Part shown: positions 11,955-26,794 of the stretch, one piece after another
How the letters are laid out: the number at the start of each line of letters is the position of its first letter
How positions within the stretch are numbered: the stretch's first letter is position 1
NCBI RefSeq assembly: GCF_011440375.1
Contig: NZ_JAAOIR010000003.1
Coordinates: forward strand, 248,001-312,000
Direction of reading: 5' to 3'
Length of the DNA stretch: 64,000 nucleotides
Source of the DNA: Halorubellus sp. JP-L1
Lineage (GTDB): Archaea; Halobacteriota; Halobacteria; Halobacteriales; Natrialbaceae
Translations under genes and position numbers: made by a program
The notes under the pieces: model-generated
Told to the model about the DNA's origin: nothing
What the model saw: the letters and a program-made list of their open reading frames with translations, nothing else
Databases searched by the model: none

Positions 11955-12725
11955 ATGGAACGGGCTGTCGACGGGGACGTACCCGTCAAGTCACTGCAGA
12001 CGACGTTCGAGATCATCACCGTCCTCCGAGAACAGGATGGAGCCGGGATCTCGACACTCAGCGACCTGACGGGACTACCCGTGAGCACAGTCCACGACCA
12101 CGTTCGCACGCTGGAACGGCTGGGGTACGTCGTCAGTCGCGAAGACGAGTACTGCCTCGGCATTCGATTCCTCGAGCTAGGGGGCTACGCGAGGAGTACG
12201 AGGAGGGTATACGACGTCTCGGTCACCGAAGTCGAGAAGCTCGCCTACGATACTGGAGAGCACGCCAATCTTCTCGTCGAGGAGAACGGCTTCGGGCACT
12301 TCCTCTATCAGGCGAAGGGCGACGACGCAGTCCGGCTCGAAACCGTCACCGGCGAACGCGTTCACCTCCACGCGACTGCACTGGGCAAAGCGATCCTCGC
12401 GCATCTACCGCAGGACCGCGTCGCGGAGATCATCGACCGGCGCGGACTACCTGCGCGGACGAATACGACGATCACCGAGCGGGAAGCCCTCTTCGAGGAA
12501 CTGGACGTCGTTCGAGAGCAGGGATACGCGACGGAGGACGAGGAGTACGTCAGGGGAATGCGGTGCGTTGCAGCACCGATACGCGACGAGGACGGCGAGG
12601 TGCTCGGGGCGATCAGCAGTTCCGGGCCGGTGAGTCGGATGCAGGGACAGCGATTCACGGAGGAGATCCCGGACACTGTACGGAGGACCACGAACATCGT
12701 CGAAGTCAACATCAACCACTCCTGA
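11955..12725 (+). CDS. IclR family transcriptional regulator
   Basis: A 256-residue regulator divergent from the E1-alpha gene across about 310 bases. The N-terminal winged helix-turn-helix covers about residues 10-70, with ISTLSDLTGLPVSTVHDHVRT as the recognition region. The C-terminal IclR effector domain follows (VHLHATALGKAILAHLP, then REQGYATEDEEYVRGMRCVA and AAPIRDEDGEVLGAISSSGP). A TATA-like patch at 11927-11938 fits a leaderless mRNA at ATG 11955. By position it may control the E1-alpha gene or a neighbouring ABC operon. The effector, usually a small organic acid in this family, is unknown. Confidence 0.9.
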   Translation: MERAVDGDVPVKSLQTTFEIITVLREQDGAGISTLSDLTGLPVSTVHDHVRTLERLGYVVSREDEYCLGIRFLELGGYARSTRRVYDVSVTEVEKLAYDTGEHANLLVEENGFGHFLYQAKGDDAVRLETVTGERVHLHATALGKAILAHLPQDRVAEIIDRRGLPARTNTTITEREALFEELDVVREQGYATEDEEYVRGMRCVAAPIRDEDGEVLGAISSSGPVSRMQGQRFTEEIPDTVRRTTNIVEVNINHS

Positions 12726-20060: not shown

Positions 20061-20259
20061 CTGTACGTGGCGATGATCGGGTCGTCGGCGAGCGCGGATT
20101 CGTAGGCCCCGAAGTCGTCGCCCGACGCCCAATAGAGGACTCGCCACTGTCCGTCCGGAGCGAACGGAACGTCTCCGCCTGGAGAACCATGTCTGGGACG
20201 GTCTGGAACGCGTCTTGGCCTATCGGATGGCCGACGTTTATGCGGCCGATGTATGACAT
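20061..20259 (-). pseudogene. N-terminal fragment of an HTH-10 (bacterio-opsin activator-like) regulator
   Basis: The fragment begins MSYIGRINVGHPIGQDAFQT and continues VPDMVLQAE, a typical start of the haloarchaeal HTH-10 family. A frameshift follows. The neighbouring frame then reads GDVPFAPDGQWRVLYWASGD and DFGAYESALADDPIIATYS, matching the rest of the family's N-terminal domain. The homology stops at the 3' end of the TetR gene, so the whole helix-turn-helix part is missing. I infer a deletion junction at about 20061. Confidence 0.55.
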
Positions 20260-21414
20260 TGAGCACCACACCCCGCGCTACGTAAGTAAGCGGGTTGCTG
20301 TGAACCGATCCGCCCACACCACCGGTCCGGAACCGAGGGAGGCACGGAGCCACCACACATTCCCTTTGTGAAGCTTATGAATACGGTGTTAAAACAGATA
20401 GTTGATGGTTATCGGTTCACCGAGACCGAACGTCGAAGGAAGACGATCCTGGCAGTTCTCGAAAGTCCACCCCGACCCCATCGCTTCACCAACGAGGCCA
20501 CACGTTCATCTTTCGACCCCCTCGACTGCTCGAGAACCGTCAACCGAACCGTACCAGCGAAAGCGCACCGATTCTGAAGCAGTACTCGAGCGGGATCTCC
20601 AGCGTACAATCGCGTTGCCGCCCAATGAGGGCAATCGACGGGTCATCCACGATTCGACGTTCCACCCCTGCGAGTTGTCACGTGACCGCGTACGCTACTA
20701 CGGAGAGAACAGTACTATCAGTTCTATAGCTATTCAGTTAGGCTATATGTTTTGTATGTAAGCGCGATGGGGCGGGTATCGAGGGTCCTCTTGGTTGCAT
20801 CGTTCTCGACACCTCATCCCTTCCTGTAAACTCTCGATAACTCCTAGGCGTGCTCCAGCGCTGCATCGACTTTGTCATTCGAGTGCTCGTTGCTGGCGCA
20901 AGGAGGTCGTCGAAGACGTCCGGATCTGTACCTCGGGATGCTGATCAAGCGAGCGTCGTCGCCGCCGTCGGCAGCACATCGAAGACAGAACCTGTTACAA
21001 TCTTATCGGTGTAACTGGATCGATCCCTCGGATCCGCTCATCTACGTGATGACTGGCCACCGTGTCGCTATCGAGAAGAGCACATCGAAATCGCCTCTCC
21101 CTCCAACCGTCGTCGCCGTCCTGGGACCGTCGACGCGGTACCCAGGGACGGCAGAACACTCCACTAGTGATAATTATTGGAAATAGACAAAACGGACCGT
21201 CGACCTCACGCACTCCAAGCAGACTACTCGCCTAATACTACGTTCTCGTCCCCGGTATTGACGCAATCTCGTAACATTCTGTCGGCGCTCGCTGGTTGCT
21301 CGCATCGCCACCCCGTTCAATGCGTCGACGAACGTCGGTAACGCGTTCGGCCAGAATCTTTCCAGGCTCGGACCACCGGCCAAGACTACCTTTATTACTT
21401 GCCAGTGATAATCC
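20260..21414. other. Gene-poor stretch before the RdfA gene
   Basis: About 1.15 kb with only short, non-acidic frames on both strands. The DNA is more A/T-rich than its surroundings between about 20660 and 20760 and again near 21170-21240. I see no tRNA, no repeat array and no convincing protein. It is probably eroded DNA from former insertions, consistent with the truncated regulator on its left and the insertion sequence a few kilobases to the right. Confidence 0.4.
21391..21400 (+). promoter_or_regulatory. TATA-like box of the rdfA-family gene
   Basis: TTTATTACTT is centred about 27 bases before ATG 21421, which favours this start over the ATG six bases upstream. Confidence 0.5.
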
Positions 21415-21420
21415 ATGTGC

Positions 21421-22041
21421 ATGACATCGAACTCCGCCGGTGGGGCACCCAGTACGCCGAAGATCGAGCGTGTCATGGACGAACACGGGCTGGTCGATAT
21501 GGGCGAGCGATTGGAGGAACGATGGCTGGGAACTGGAGAGACAGACCAGTACAGTACGCGGCAGCTCGCCGATTACGTCAACAAGGAGATCCTTCGATCC
21601 GCCATCGATGCGAGTGATACGTTCACCCTGAGTGGGGACGTGGAGGAGGTCTACAGCGCACTCACCGACGACGAGGACACGGGCGCGACGCTCGTGAAGT
21701 CCCGGCTCGAACAGAGCGGCATCGACGTCGAGGCAGTCACGGACGACTTCATCTCCCACCAAACGGTGCACCGGTACCTGAAACGGAATCGCGGCGTGGA
21801 ACGACCCCAGCAGAGTCCGGAAGAGAAACTCGAGAGCGCCGCCGAAACGATCCAGCAGCTTCGAGGCCGAACCACTGCCGTAACCGAACAGAAGATCCGA
21901 GACCTCGAGAACTCCGGCGCCATCTCCGTCGGCGATTTCAGTGTCCTCAACGACATCCAGATCATCTGCGAGCGCTGCGGCCGGAGTCACGACGCCCCCT
22001 CGTTCTTCGAACAGGGCGGCTGTGACTGCAGTGCCGAATGA
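21421..22041 (+). CDS. RdfA family protein (rod-determining factor-like)
   Basis: A 206-residue haloarchaea-specific protein. It matches what I know of the RdfA family: an N-terminal part with KIERVMDEHGLVDMGERLEE and STRQLADYVNKEILRSAID, a central ATLVKSRLEQSGIDVEAVTD and DDFISHQTVHRYLKR, and a C-terminal zinc-binding element (ICERCGRS, then QGGCDC). In Haloferax one member is needed for rod-shaped cells; many haloarchaea carry several paralogs, often in variable regions, whose roles are unclear. It is followed after 95 bases by an archaea-specific SMC-related gene, a pairing seen repeatedly in this group. Confidence 0.8.
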   Translation: MTSNSAGGAPSTPKIERVMDEHGLVDMGERLEERWLGTGETDQYSTRQLADYVNKEILRSAIDASDTFTLSGDVEEVYSALTDDEDTGATLVKSRLEQSGIDVEAVTDDFISHQTVHRYLKRNRGVERPQQSPEEKLESAAETIQQLRGRTTAVTEQKIRDLENSGAISVGDFSVLNDIQIICERCGRSHDAPSFFEQGGCDCSAE

Positions 22042-22104
22042 CGTCCCGTCACCGACTCGCTCGTGCCGCGGCCGTCTCGTCGACGGCCGTCTCTGAAAGG
22101 AGAA

Positions 22105-22113
22105 GGTTTTTCT
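22105..22113 (+). promoter_or_regulatory. TATA-like box of the SMC-related gene
   Basis: GGTTTTTCT is centred about 28 bases before ATG 22137 and suggests that the SMC-related gene has its own leaderless transcript. Confidence 0.4.
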
Positions 22114-22136
22114 GAGACAGTTCCGTGATTGATACT

Positions 22137-24095
22137 ATGGCTCAGGCGACTCGAGAACGACAGTCGGTCCAGCTTACCGTCCGAAACATCGGTGGGATCT
22201 CGGACACGTCAGTGGAATTCGAACCGGGAGTGAACGTTCTATCCGGACGAAACGCGACGAACCGAACGTCGCTCTTGCGCTCGATCATGACCGTCCTGGG
22301 GAGCGACGACGCGTCCCTGAAGAGCGACGCCGAAGAGGGATTCGTCGAGTTGCAGTTCGACGACGAGACGTACACGCGTCGATTCACCCGAGAGAACGGG
22401 ACGGTCACCAGCGACGGGGAGCCGTACCTCGACGACCCGGAACTGGGAGACCTCTACGCGTTCCTGCTCGCGACGAACGAATCCCGGCAGGCAGTGCTCA
22501 CGGACCAGAACCTCCGTGACCTCATCATGCGACCGGTCGACACCGCGGCAATCAAATCCGAGATCGATACCCTCGAGCAAGAAAAGTCCCGCATCGACGA
22601 CGAACTGGACGAACTCTCCCAACTCGAGCAACGGCTCCCCGCTCTCGAAGACGACCGGGCGGATCTCTCGACCAGGATCGAGGAGAAAGAGGCCGCCCTG
22701 GAGGCGAAGCGAGAAGAGATCGAGACGGCCGACGCATCGGTCGACGAATCACGAGAGGAGGAACGAGAGCTCGACGAACGGATGTCGGAGCTGGGTGACG
22801 TTCGATCCGAGATCGACAGCGTTCGACAGGAGTTACGCGCGCAACGAGAGAGCCTCGAGACGTTGCGGGCCGAACGCGAGGAGTTGGAACGCGACGCCGA
22901 AGAGCTCCCGGACGCGCCCGCGGGCGAGATCGAGGAGATCAACCGGAAGATCGACGACCTCCGCGATCGGAAGCAGTCGATCCAGTCGGAGATGAACACC
23001 CTCCAGCGAATCATCCAGTTCAACGAGGACAATCTGGAGGGCACCAGCTCGGACATCCTGGACGCACTGACCGAGGACGGCGGCCACGACCACGAACGGG
23101 ACGTCACGGAACAGCTCGTCGACGACTCGGAGACCGTCGTTTGCTGGACGTGTGGCCACGGCGTCGAACAGGAAGCCATCGAGGAGACGCTCGAGGAACT
23201 GCGTGAGCTCCGAACGTCGAAACTGAGCGAGAGCCGCGACCTCGACGAGCAGATCGACGACCTGAAAGAGGAACGGATCACCTACGAGGAGAAGGAACGG
23301 CAGCGGAATCAAGTGCAGGACCGACTCGAGCGCACGGCGTCACAGATCGAGGAGCGCGAGGGTCGCATCGACGACCTCGAGGACCGACGTGACTCCCTCG
23401 AAGCAGAGATCGACGACATCGAGGCGGAGATCGACGAACTACAGACCCAGCAGGACGAGACGATCCTCTCGCTCCACAAGGAAGCGAACCAGCTGGAGGT
23501 CGACCTCAACCGACTGGAGACCGAGAGAGAGGAAGTCAGCCGAGAGATCGAGGACATCGAAACGACGCTCGAAGAGCGTGCGGAACTGGAACAGCGTCGA
23601 GAAGAGCTCACCGAAGAACTGGAGGATCTACGGACCCGAATCGACCAGATCGAGGCGGAAGCCGTCGAGTCGTTCAACGACCAGATGGAAGCAGTCCTCG
23701 ATGCGCTGGCGTACGACAATATCGCCCGCATCTGGATCGAGCGGACGGTCCAGGAGGTCAAGAAGGGTCGAAGGAAGGTCTCGGAGAACCAGTTCACGCT
23801 CCACATCGTGCGCGAGTCCGAGAGCGGCGCCGCATACGAGGACGAGCTCCGGCATCTCTCGGAGAGCGAACGCGAGGTGACCGGGCTCGTCTTCGCACTG
23901 GCTGGCTACCTCGTCCACGACGTCCACGAGGAGGTCCCGTTCATGCTACTGGACTCCCTCGAGGCGATCGATTCCGACCGGATCGCACGGCTCGTCGAAC
24001 ACTTCGAACCGTATCCGCAGTACCTCGTTGCAGCGTTGCTCCCCGAGGACGCAGCCGCCACGTCCGACTCGTACAACTTGCTCACGGAGATCTGA
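22137..24095 (+). CDS. Archaea-specific SMC-related protein
   Basis: A 652-residue coiled-coil ATPase related to SMC/Rad50. The N-terminal head has GVNVLSGRNATNRTSLLRSI, the Walker A variant typical of this archaeal group (GRNATNRTS). Two long coiled coils (about residues 140-300 and 350-530) flank a zinc-hook-like CWTCGH near residue 336. The C-terminal head has LSESEREVTGLVFALAGYL as an ABC-signature-like helix and VPFMLLDSLEAID as Walker B. Known relatives were described as haloarchaeal SMC-like proteins; a chromosome or cytoskeletal role is assumed. ATG 22137 (MAQATRERQ) is preferred over the GTG at 22125. It follows an RdfA-type gene, so the pair may act together. Confidence 0.85.
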   Translation: MAQATRERQSVQLTVRNIGGISDTSVEFEPGVNVLSGRNATNRTSLLRSIMTVLGSDDASLKSDAEEGFVELQFDDETYTRRFTRENGTVTSDGEPYLDDPELGDLYAFLLATNESRQAVLTDQNLRDLIMRPVDTAAIKSEIDTLEQEKSRIDDELDELSQLEQRLPALEDDRADLSTRIEEKEAALEAKREEIETADASVDESREEERELDERMSELGDVRSEIDSVRQELRAQRESLETLRAEREELERDAEELPDAPAGEIEEINRKIDDLRDRKQSIQSEMNTLQRIIQFNEDNLEGTSSDILDALTEDGGHDHERDVTEQLVDDSETVVCWTCGHGVEQEAIEETLEELRELRTSKLSESRDLDEQIDDLKEERITYEEKERQRNQVQDRLERTASQIEEREGRIDDLEDRRDSLEAEIDDIEAEIDELQTQQDETILSLHKEANQLEVDLNRLETEREEVSREIEDIETTLEERAELEQRREELTEELEDLRTRIDQIEAEAVESFNDQMEAVLDALAYDNIARIWIERTVQEVKKGRRKVSENQFTLHIVRESESGAAYEDELRHLSESEREVTGLVFALAGYLVHDVHEEVPFMLLDSLEAIDSDRIARLVEHFEPYPQYLVAALLPEDAAATSDSYNLLTEI

Positions 24096-24271: not shown

Positions 24272-25015
24272 AGGCACCGTCTAGTTTAGCACCTCGGCTG
24301 GCGTTCGTCCGTCGAGCGCCTGATTCGGCCGATGTTGGTTGTAATAGCGTTTGAACCGCTGGCACCATTCGGCGACGGCCGGCCGACTGCCCACCCAACT
24401 CGTGTGGAAGCGGTCAGTTCGCATTTTGAACGTGTGAAACCACTTCTCGACGTGGTTTCGGTCGCTATACTCGACCTGACCGCTCAGCCCTAATCGAGCG
24501 AGGACAGTCCGATAGCCGTAGGAGTCGACCAGGAATTCAGCCGCAGAGACGTCGTATTTCTCGGTGGGTTTGTGCAGGAACGTCGCCGCTGAATCGGTGC
24601 CATGACGACTGAAGACGCCGATATCCAGCAAATAGAGCGAGTCGAGATCGACCGCCGCATACAGCCAGTACCACTCCGGCCCGATCTGGACAGCGGTCTC
24701 GTCGACGGCGACTCGCGACGGCCAGGCCGTCGGCGGGTCAGGCTCGCTGTCGGCCAGCCGATGCTTCCACTGCCAGACCACGTCATGCGAGGGGTGGACT
24801 CCCAGCAGTTCTAAGATGGCGACCATCTCCCGGATCGACAGCCCCGCCGTGTGGAGGCGCACCCCGACCCGTCGGACGGGAGTCGGCGTGCGCTCGTTCT
24901 CCCAAACGTCATGGTGGCTCTCTTCCAACGTTTTCATGAGGAGGCCTGCGAGTTGCATGCACACTTCTCGCTACGACCTCCTCGCTTCTCAAACTCGCTC
25001 AACTAGACAGTGCCT
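24272..25015 (-). mobile_element. IS6-type insertion sequence of about 744 bp
   Basis: The element is bounded by imperfect inverted repeats. The left end reads AGGCACCGTCTAGTTTAGC from 24272. The right end, read inward on the other strand from 25015, is AGGCACTGTCTAGTTGAGC. They differ at two of 19 positions. The only gene inside is a DDE transposase on the minus strand, starting about 50 bases from the right end and ending inside the left repeat. The ends GGCACTGT match the IS6 family. I do not see a convincing 8-base target duplication in the flanks, so the element may be old or have recombined. Confidence 0.75.
24281..24964 (-). CDS. IS6 family transposase (DDE)
   Basis: A 227-residue transposase. 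The N-terminal part has RRVGVRLHTAGLSIREMVAI and LLGVHPSHDVVWQWKHRL, a helix-turn-helix region. The catalytic DDE residues are in RVAVDETAVQIGPEWYWLYA (D), AEFLVDSYGYR (D) and YSDRNHVEKWFHTFK (E). The end FKRYYNQHRPNQALDGRTPA is typical of rve-type integrase cores. It appears full-length, so the copy may still be active. Start may be ATG 24964 or 24958. Its stop lies within the left inverted repeat. Confidence 0.88.
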   Translation of the reverse strand: MCMQLAGLLMKTLEESHHDVWENERTPTPVRRVGVRLHTAGLSIREMVAILELLGVHPSHDVVWQWKHRLADSEPDPPTAWPSRVAVDETAVQIGPEWYWLYAAVDLDSLYLLDIGVFSRHGTDSAATFLHKPTEKYDVSAAEFLVDSYGYRTVLARLGLSGQVEYSDRNHVEKWFHTFKMRTDRFHTSWVGSRPAVAEWCQRFKRYYNQHRPNQALDGRTPAEVLN

Positions 25016-25502: not shown

Positions 25503-26294
25503 TTAGCGGTCGACCGCTGCCGCACCGTTGTACTTGATGCGGATGATGTCGGCCGTCTCCATGACGCGTCGCGGCATCTCCTCGTGGAAATATTCGCTCT
25601 TTATACGGCTAGCGGGGCCGGAGAGGGAGACGGTGCCGATAACGCCGTCCAGTCCACGCACTGGAGCGGCGACGCCGCGAATCCCGATCGCTGCCTCTTC
25701 TTGGTCGCTGGCATATCCCTGCTCGCGAATCGTTTCCAGCTCCGACGCGAGCTCCTCCCGGTCGGTAATCGTATTCGGCGTCATCGAAGGGAGGCCGTGC
25801 GCGTCGATGACCTCGTTCAGCGTTTCGTCGTCCATGTGGGCGAGCACCACCTTCCCGCTGGCGGTCGCGTTAAGATGCCATCGGCTGCCCGTAGTGTAGG
25901 CCCCGCTCTCGACGGCGTCGCTGCCGCCAGTCTTGTACAGATAGTATCCCCAGCCGTGTTCGGCGACCATCAGCCAGACGAACTCCCCGGTCTCGGCGGC
26001 GAGGTCGTCCGCAGGTTCAGTACCATGCTCGTAGAGTGGGTAGTTCTCCTTGATGCTATTTCCCACTTCGTAGTAACGAAGCCCGGGCCGATAGCGGTTG
26101 TCTTCTTTGACAGCGAATCCCCGGCGCTCAAGCGTTCGCAGGTGTGCCAGGACGTTGCTGGGCGACCGGTCCAGCGTCTCTGCCAGCTCCGTAATCGTCA
26201 TCGGGTCCGCTCCCACGAGCGTCTCGATGATGTCCAGGGATGTGTCGACCGATTTGATCACCGCTTGGTCGTCGTCCATCGGTGGCGTGGTCAT
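25503..26294 (-). CDS. IclR family transcriptional regulator
   Basis: A regulator of about 263 residues. The helix-turn-helix covers roughly residues 20-75 (MTITELAETLDRSPSNVLAH, then LRTLERRGFAVKEDNRYRPG). The effector domain has RWHLNATASGKVVLAHMDDE, YASDQEEAAIGIRGVAAPVR and VIGTVSLSGPASR. The start could be ATG 26294 (MTTPPMDDDQ) or ATG 26279 (MDDDQAV); an ATATTG box near 26304 would suit the shorter one. It stands at the edge of the carbohydrate-acid gene cluster and reads away from it, so it is the likely pathway regulator. Confidence 0.88.
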   Translation of the reverse strand: MTTPPMDDDQAVIKSVDTSLDIIETLVGADPMTITELAETLDRSPSNVLAHLRTLERRGFAVKEDNRYRPGLRYYEVGNSIKENYPLYEHGTEPADDLAAETGEFVWLMVAEHGWGYYLYKTGGSDAVESGAYTTGSRWHLNATASGKVVLAHMDDETLNEVIDAHGLPSMTPNTITDREELASELETIREQGYASDQEEAAIGIRGVAAPVRGLDGVIGTVSLSGPASRIKSEYFHEEMPRRVMETADIIRIKYNGAAAVDR

Positions 26295-26794
26295 GTCCGT
26301 ACAATATCTGCCCTGCGTCTTTAGCATACCGCCGCACGTGACCGTATCTGGCGACCTCGCGGATGTGCTTGGCGTCGGATGCAGTGGTCGCATAGACGGT
26401 TCTCTCATACCGAATCGAGGGGTTTCGGCGAACTCGCTGCAGCGTCGGGAGCCCAGAGAGGGCCGGGACGCCTCGGCAACGGTAATCGCGGAGGAGCGGC
26501 TGTCGTTCGGCCGGTTCGAGACGAGGTCGGTCAGCAACTCGAAGCGACCGAGCCAGTGTTTCGAATTCCTGCAAGGGCGGCCAGCTGGGCGTTGCGGATC
26601 GTCGGCTGCCCGATTTGTCACTGGTTCGAGCGTGAGCGTGGATGACTCACCATGAGAGAAACCCCTGGTTCACGCAGTCCTTCGTCCGTTCTTCCTTCCG
26701 AGGGTCGGTCATTGTGAGGGGTCGAGGTCTCAGGCCCTGATGCAGCCGATATCGTCTCACGGCCAGGAGAAACAATAATAGAGCCTACAAAACA
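26295..26794. other. Regulatory and non-coding stretch before the SAF oxidoreductase gene
   Basis: About 500 bases between the divergent IclR and oxidoreductase genes. The frames here are basic and overlapping, and I support none. It should contain IclR binding sites, but I did not find a clear palindrome. Confidence 0.35.

Follow-up and report, generated by a model that had tools for sequence, protein, structure and literature searches.

The closest described relatives of the locus analysed here are RdfA (HVO_2174) and Sph3 (HVO_2175) of Haloferax volcanii, the products of two adjacent genes that are needed in this species for rods and motility (Schiller et al. 2024, PMC10869688). Members of the same two families lie side by side in a 64,000-nucleotide stretch of the Halorubellus sp. 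JP-L1 genome (positions 248,001 to 312,000 of contig NZ_JAAOIR010000003.1, hereafter the window), where an rdfA gene is followed by a gene for an archaea-specific SMC-related protein (ASRP, also called Sph). In contrast to the H. volcanii pair, the window pair has an IS6-family element and an IclR-family regulator alongside, and no other intact pair was found in its genome.

Deletion of rdfA and deletion of sph3 give the same disk-only, non-motile H. volcanii cells, and growth of the chromosomal deletion strains is reported to be unimpaired (PMC10869688). A previous reading of this DNA from sequence alone held that the function of the many accessory pairs is unknown, which is partly true, but all four H. 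volcanii sph genes have been deleted, with phenotypes in shape, swarming and gene conversion: each of the sph1-4 deletions reduces gene-conversion survival, while deletion of smc has no effect; sph2 and sph4 could not be deleted jointly, and the sph2 deletion keeps rods (PMC11276520). Deletion of csmR raises rdfA and sph3 transcripts (PMC13286277). The reports conflict on Sph3: according to the 2026 CsmR paper (PMC13286277) it is needed for plates and its loss gives rods, whereas in the 2024 paper (PMC10869688) and in PMC11276520 the sph3 deletion forms no rods.

Other relatives share part of these features. RdfA-Sph2 of Halobacterium salinarum (pNRC200) is, like the window pair, a tandem with rdfA first whose ASRP has a zinc hook and degenerate Walker A and B motifs, but this ASRP is 39.7% identical to that of the window and lies beside kdp potassium genes, with no IclR gene in the 6 kb shown. 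Coalescin (ClsN) of Sulfolobus is likewise an ASRP with a zinc hook, and marks compartments of low transcription; unlike the window protein it falls in a separate clade (PMC9389158), and one S. acidocaldarius control genome held no RdfA match. In two methanogen plasmids, Methanohalobium pMETEV01 and Methanomethylovorans pMETHO01, an ASRP gene also adjoins an RdfA homologue, but there the ASRP gene comes first, has canonical motifs, and belongs to a tight operon with a third, winged-helix gene.

The window pair is in itself an ordinary, already published kind of gene pair, while several features surrounding it were not found in the portions of the open-access papers covered. The two families co-occur and are kept as neighbours across haloarchaea, and the haloarchaeal ASRPs have a zinc hook and lack the canonical catalytic residues. 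On this basis we propose, with a probability of about one half, that the window pair is an RdfA-Sph partner system that stably clamps or scaffolds DNA or the nucleoid and affects shape, motility and genome upkeep.

The pair and its neighbourship across haloarchaea

The two window genes form a tandem on the same strand with a gap of 95 bp. RdfA passes the curated cut-off of PF21811 (225.8 bits vs 27) and the ASRP that of NF045487 (683.4 bits vs 300). The features of the pair are as follows.

21391..21397, + strand: TATA-like box of rdfA, TTTATTA, at -30..-24 from the ATG at 21421 (by eye; the family-wide A+T peak lies at -25..-34)
21421..22041, + strand: rdfA, RdfA family, 206 aa (open reading frame 21415-22041, ATG at 21421 preferred; PF21811, E 5.6e-67)
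21967..22029, + strand: RdfA cysteines C183, C186 and C201 (each at least 90%) and C203 (118-sequence alignment)
22107..22111, + strand: TATA-like T run of the ASRP gene, TTTTT, at -30..-26 from the ATG at 22137 (by eye)
22137..24095, + strand: ASRP/Sph gene, 652 aa (open reading frame 22125-24095, open from a GTG at 22125, ATG at 22137 preferred; NF045487, 2.7e-205)
22245..22271, + strand: degenerate Walker A, GRNATNRTS, Arg replacing Lys (R in 76/97, K in 21/97)
23142..23153, + strand: zinc hook CWTC, C336 and C339 (CxxC in 97/97)
23943..23972, + strand: degenerate Walker B, MLLDSLEAID, Ser replacing the catalytic Glu (S 77, G 10, A 6, R 3, Q 1; n=97)

The sequence-only reading had described two adjacent genes, each with its own TATA box, and a zinc hook in the SMC-related protein; the tandem and the hook are confirmed, and the boxes recognised by eye agree with a peak of A+T at -25..-34 upstream of 123 RdfA genes and, likewise, of the downstream ASRP gene in 48 tandems with rdfA first. 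A stricter TATA pattern preceded 19 of the 123 RdfA genes and 9 of the 48 downstream ASRP genes, against 3 and 0 at a control distance of -100..-78; before RdfA genes in tandems with ASRP first it was present once in 16. Separate TATA-like elements for both genes look like a family trait.

In 145 genomes of the class, with ASRP counted over its curated cut-off, RdfA was found in 125 and ASRP in 123: both families were present in 123 genomes, neither in 20, RdfA alone in two (G072 and G111), and ASRP alone in none (Fisher 1.3e-22, uncorrected for relatedness). Adjacency was counted in the 60 RdfA-bearing genomes with complete match lists, taking as neighbours matches within 1 kb. An ASRP adjoins 85 of 126 RdfA matches and an RdfA adjoins 84 of 98 ASRP matches, so the rare adjacency that the sequence-only reading had named as evidence against a pair is not what these genomes display. 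The pairing is already published (42/54 RdfA and 42/50 SMC-like genes adjacent in 24 genomes, PMC10869688), and the present count agrees with it. Six of the 60 genomes hold no adjacent pair: five keep both genes apart and G072 has no ASRP; among the genomes with both families present though unlinked are G029, G052, G054 and G062. One locus of G072, a genome without an ASRP over the cut-off, bears two RdfA genes about 1 kb apart (L240, G072:C26).

The 85 neighbour cases comprise 48 tandems with rdfA first, 16 with ASRP first, 13 convergent and 8 divergent pairs, spread over 33 genera (23, 7, 8 and 4, respectively). Since all four arrangements occur, neighbourship appears to be kept without a fixed single transcript. 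Among paired rows, the RdfA tree requires at least 12 changes of arrangement and the ASRP tree at least 13; both are quick searches without bootstrap, and well-supported branches alone force fewer. A mirror-tree comparison gave r 0.886 over 84 pairs (maximum of 2000 permutations, 0.248) and, within the main class of 64, r 0.65. In 19 of 22 multi-pair genomes the true assignment of partners had the best score, with margins that are often small. Six loci with a short-ASRP class of pair (L136, L184, L194, L201, L207, L237) have in common a neighbouring gene whose product, of about 280 aa, has an apparent ribbon-helix-helix start and a CxxC motif by eye; it is possibly a third component.

The genome of the window holds one ASRP, and its second RdfA match, on the same contig (L106, G000:C3:108444-108872), is a fragment with three stops and no ASRP match nearby, which leaves the window pair as the only intact pair found there.

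Degenerate ATPase motifs, modelled RdfA structure and the proposed clamp

The N-terminus of the window ASRP is Rad50-like (match to 3qkt, 7.8e-06), and the zinc hook CWTCG stands at residues 336-340 in the middle of the coiled coil, its CxxC being kept in all 97 haloarchaeal ASRPs aligned. The ATPase motif positions are present at both ends of the protein with degenerate residues: where active SMC/Rad50-type ATPases have a Walker-A Lys and a Walker-B Glu, the window ASRP has Arg and Ser. The Walker-B Glu occurs in none of the 97 proteins; a GKSS P-loop is retained in 15, yet these too are without the Glu. It is similarly absent from 19 further ASRP rows, H. salinarum Sph2 included, at least three of which come from organisms already in the 97. 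The 2022 family paper (PMC9389158) mentions Walker motifs and, in the parts covered, is silent on a loss of catalytic residues; nor was any mention of such a loss found in the covered parts of the open-access literature on haloarchaeal Sph and SMC-like proteins.

In an alignment of 118 RdfA rows, N54 is invariant and K14, W35, R47, C183, C186 and C201 are each conserved in at least 90%; the C-terminal cysteines probably form a zinc site. An AlphaFold2 model of the window protein (pLDDT 91.1, pTM 0.78) places seven helices between residues 14 and 123, then one 32-residue helix (133-164) and a small zinc-ribbon-like C-terminal end that holds the conserved cysteines. Against the PDB, the best structural matches had E values of 0.99 for the whole model and 2.6 for the N-domain (best Z 3.8 and 4.3), viral structures gave nothing below E 0.43, and the RdfA profile, run against PDB sequences, found nothing below E 0.18; neither RdfA nor its N-domain gave a fold match indicating likeness to a kleisin or a tandem winged-helix (KITE) protein. 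This missing match does not establish a new fold.

Beyond the haloarchaea, a survey of 196 genomes of the phylum gave three RdfA matches outside the class, one over the cut-off (G165) and two below (G293 and G240). Those of G165 and G293 adjoin ASRPs and correspond to pMETEV01, where an RdfA annotation already exists for the gene, and pMETHO01, whose gene is annotated as hypothetical; our own RdfA profile gives the two homologues 41.7 and 36.1 bits, and they share 27% identity. Both methanogen ASRPs, from Methanohalobium evestigatum and Methanomethylovorans hollandica, are canonical (GKTS and DE, 2/2), and these two rows are the sole canonical-motif comparison. In each operon the next gene encodes a winged-helix protein, and the two are related (30% identical, HTH_45); the second half of this third gene (L268 4919-6009, L267 7435-8641) is maybe another winged helix, KITE-like by eye. 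The phrase rod-determining factor was absent, in connection with these two methanogen genera, among the open-access matches listed.

In the proposed mechanism, two Sph molecules would join at the zinc hook and their Rad50-like heads would close on ATP with little or no hydrolysis. RdfA may bind Sph as an obligate adaptor through its helical domain, long helix and zinc-ribbon-like end, and the complex would then hold DNA or the nucleoid as a stable clamp or scaffold, with no motor function. By analogy with H. volcanii rdfA/sph3 and sph1-4, its output would be cell shape, motility and the upkeep of genome copies, and the pair may behave as an exchangeable cassette of two genes, each with a promoter of its own.

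Several observations weigh against this proposal. Within 1 kb, 41/126 RdfA and 14/98 ASRP matches have no partner (among the unpaired RdfA matches, an ASRP stands 1.6-1.7 kb away in two cases, and fragments or stop-bearing copies number at least four). Outside the class G192, one of three genomes with an ASRP over the cut-off, has no RdfA match, and no RdfA match shares a contig with the second ASRP of G165. Nearest neighbours on the RdfA and ASRP trees agree for just 61 of 84 pairs. The window pair is itself discordant: its RdfA falls among RdfAs lacking an adjoining ASRP (50-54% identical, from three genomes and Haloarcula sinaiiensis pHsi540) and its ASRP among the partners of others, which suggests that partners may have been exchanged. 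Moreover, linked transfer by itself could give the co-inheritance of RdfA and ASRP. As 82 of the 97 ASRPs keep a Glu three residues past the Walker-B Asp (DSLE) that might substitute for the catalytic one, the loss of activity is only a prediction, and as RdfA lacks a fold match its adaptor role is a guess.

A more elaborate and more tentative version of the partner-system proposal is that haloarchaeal Sph proteins are hydrolysis-dead SMC relatives that descended from a methanogen-like canonical ancestor, whose gene shared an operon with those of RdfA and a winged-helix protein. Loss of the catalytic Glu, and mostly of the Walker Lys, might have turned a motor into an ATP-locked, RdfA-gated clamp, and the cassette, free in its arrangement, might have been joined repeatedly to substrate-sensing IclR regulators, tying carbon supply to the state of the nucleoid and cell shape. 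If Sph does work without hydrolysing ATP, it would be unusual among SMC-type machines and might help to explain how an SMC-like protein sets cell shape. Four statements drawn from these results lend themselves to testing: that RdfA is an obligate Sph partner, that haloarchaeal Sph proteins are without the catalytic Glu, that the pair repeatedly has an IclR gene next to it, and that operons of RdfA and ASRP are present beyond the haloarchaea.

Replicons, IclR neighbours and the alternatives

Both genes are common on plasmids, RdfA matching 178 places in 126 plasmid records and ASRP 189 places in 129. Sph and RdfA might compact or partition the replicon that carries them, as a maintenance cassette; some plasmid copies of RdfA or of the pair (L275, L276, L277, L281, L286) lie close to orc1/cdc6 or parA-type genes, both methanogen pairs are plasmid-borne, and the window's own 369-kb contig carries one Orc1/Cdc6 gene. 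However, pairs are present too on contigs of 1.7-3.9 Mb, several plasmid copies stand amid catabolic genes, where the 6-8 kb shown include no replication gene, and the H. volcanii deletions described above cause no growth defect. We regard this explanation as rather unlikely, and the plasmid-maintenance role suggested from the sequence alone is probably not a general one.

The second alternative arises from the genes around the loci, a set of 1704 neighbours delimited with a home-made gene caller and grouped into clusters named by eye. IclR genes account for 36 of 689 neighbours within 3 kb, against 2 of 1015 at 3-7.5 kb (Fisher 1.1e-12), whereas eleven other frequent clusters, mostly catabolic or transport genes by eye, are together nearly flat (62 near vs 78 far). 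Since the association surfaced during the neighbour-cluster scan, this first test is post hoc. An explanation by catabolic islands alone was rejected, as IclR decays with distance and the eleven other clusters together hardly do, though two of them lean near (11 vs 4 and 6 vs 2). An IclR gene lies within 3 kb of 21/84 pair loci and 7/37 solo RdfA loci, in 20 of 33 genera. IclR genes were also mapped in ten genomes, hand-picked for few contigs and including three of one genus: 7 of 17 pairs had one within 3 kb, vs 0.91 expected from random placement on the same contig (reached in 0/5000 trials), three of these seven pairs coming from one genus. Seven of 16 further plasmid records had an IclR gene within 3 kb (nine genes near, two at 3-8 kb). 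These records (RdfA matches H2, H3, H7, H8, H10, H12-14, H16, H17, H19, H21, H25, H26, H28 and H33) were hand-picked from 60 listed of the 126 and counted by eye, two of them having short left flanks; six other plasmid regions, three of which had been chosen for a known IclR, stand outside the count. No report of RdfA with IclR, or of SMC-like proteins with IclR in haloarchaea, was found in the open-access papers searched.

RdfA and ASRP could, on this evidence, be local regulators of catabolic islands that organise or silence the adjoining DNA together with IclR. On the RdfA tree the IclR label switches 18 times, and the adjoining IclRs are diverse and on long branches, which favours a recurrent association, and coalescin offers a precedent for an ASRP in low-transcription compartments. 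Yet an IclR within 3 kb is lacking at 63 of the 84 pair loci and at all seven solo RdfAs in the ten mapped genomes, and where present its side and strand vary; for H. salinarum, no transcription-linked compartments are reported according to a study cited in PMC9389158. We consider this possibility doubtful, to much the same degree as replicon maintenance. Under the partner-system proposal, the adjoining IclR regulator, one of a kind that frequently governs the use of nutrients, suggests that expression of the window pair may follow a carbon source. It could also stand there by chance, since all five IclR genes of this genome are on the window's contig.

The remaining explanations fare worse. 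That two accessory genes merely travel together, by chance or by hitch-hiking, would fit their abundance on plasmids and the existence of solo copies, but we judge it improbable given adjacency in four arrangements across many genera, co-occurrence in genomes where the genes are unlinked, and the shared deletion phenotype in H. volcanii (PMC10869688). Least credible of all is the anti-virus defence role that the sequence-only reading had also entertained, in the manner of Lamassu- or Wadjet-like systems: an accessory, exchangeable SMC-like protein with a small partner would suit it, and the ASRP has partial PADLOC matches (mostly to coiled coil or P-loop; best LmuB, 4.5e-18 over residues 271-611), but RdfA matches no PADLOC, PHROG or Pfam nuclease family, though it might be an unrecognised effector, phage records gave no match to either gene at the limits used, RdfA occurs in 125 of the 145 genomes of the class, the catalytic residues of the ASRP are absent, and the commonest neighbour clusters are not defence-like by eye, no defence-library scan having been made of them.

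Flanks of the window pair and mobility

The pair is bordered by the following features.

20061..21414, no strand: upstream stretch of 1.35 kb, described as eroded, without a recognisable gene
24272..25015, - strand: IS6-family element (transposase 24281-24964, NF033587, 8.1e-46), between the gene pair and the IclR gene
25503..26621, - strand: IclR-family regulator (PF01614, 4e-33; the family domain starts at about residue 116 of the open reading frame)

Both flanking features named by the sequence-only reading are present. The IS6 element has 19-nt inverted ends (24272-24290 and 24997-25015), with no target-site duplication visible by eye. The eroded stretch has a G+C content of 0.567, vs 0.641 for the window; as it gave no DNA match in plasmid records and its translated pieces none in 1979 neighbour proteins, it seems to be non-coding. 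No tRNA was found in the window. The same reading had called the pair mobile, and this is partly supported. RdfA and ASRP turn over like accessory genes, with many copies in plasmid records and different pairs elsewhere in a sister species, but no transposon carrying the window pair is visible. A composite transposon was considered and rejected: there is no second flanking copy of the insertion sequence, other copies being on other contigs or about 59 kb or more away.

The one sister species compared (G145) carries three RdfAs, two of which belong to neighbouring pairs. These pairs stand back to back (RdfA on the minus strand, ASRP on the plus, ASRP on the minus, RdfA on the minus; L259 2272-8323, G145:C7). 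The paired RdfAs are about 33-34% identical to that of the window and the ASRPs 46-49%, less than those of Halomicrococcus, from another family (43.8% and 54.0%). The window's right flank (IclR and the next gene, 77-83% DNA identity) is found in G145 about 16 kb from the pairs, with other genes between. That the sister species has different pairs at another place suggests that the pair is exchangeable. The nearest paired relative of the window RdfA, in G069, shares with the window a gene order of RdfA and ASRP on one strand, followed by an intervening gene and an IclR gene on the other.

Two minor observations concern the gene families themselves. Some RdfA matches sit within long open frames, and the window holds a second IclR-family domain at 12207-12689 (G000:C3:260207-260689), about 9 kb upstream of the gene pair.

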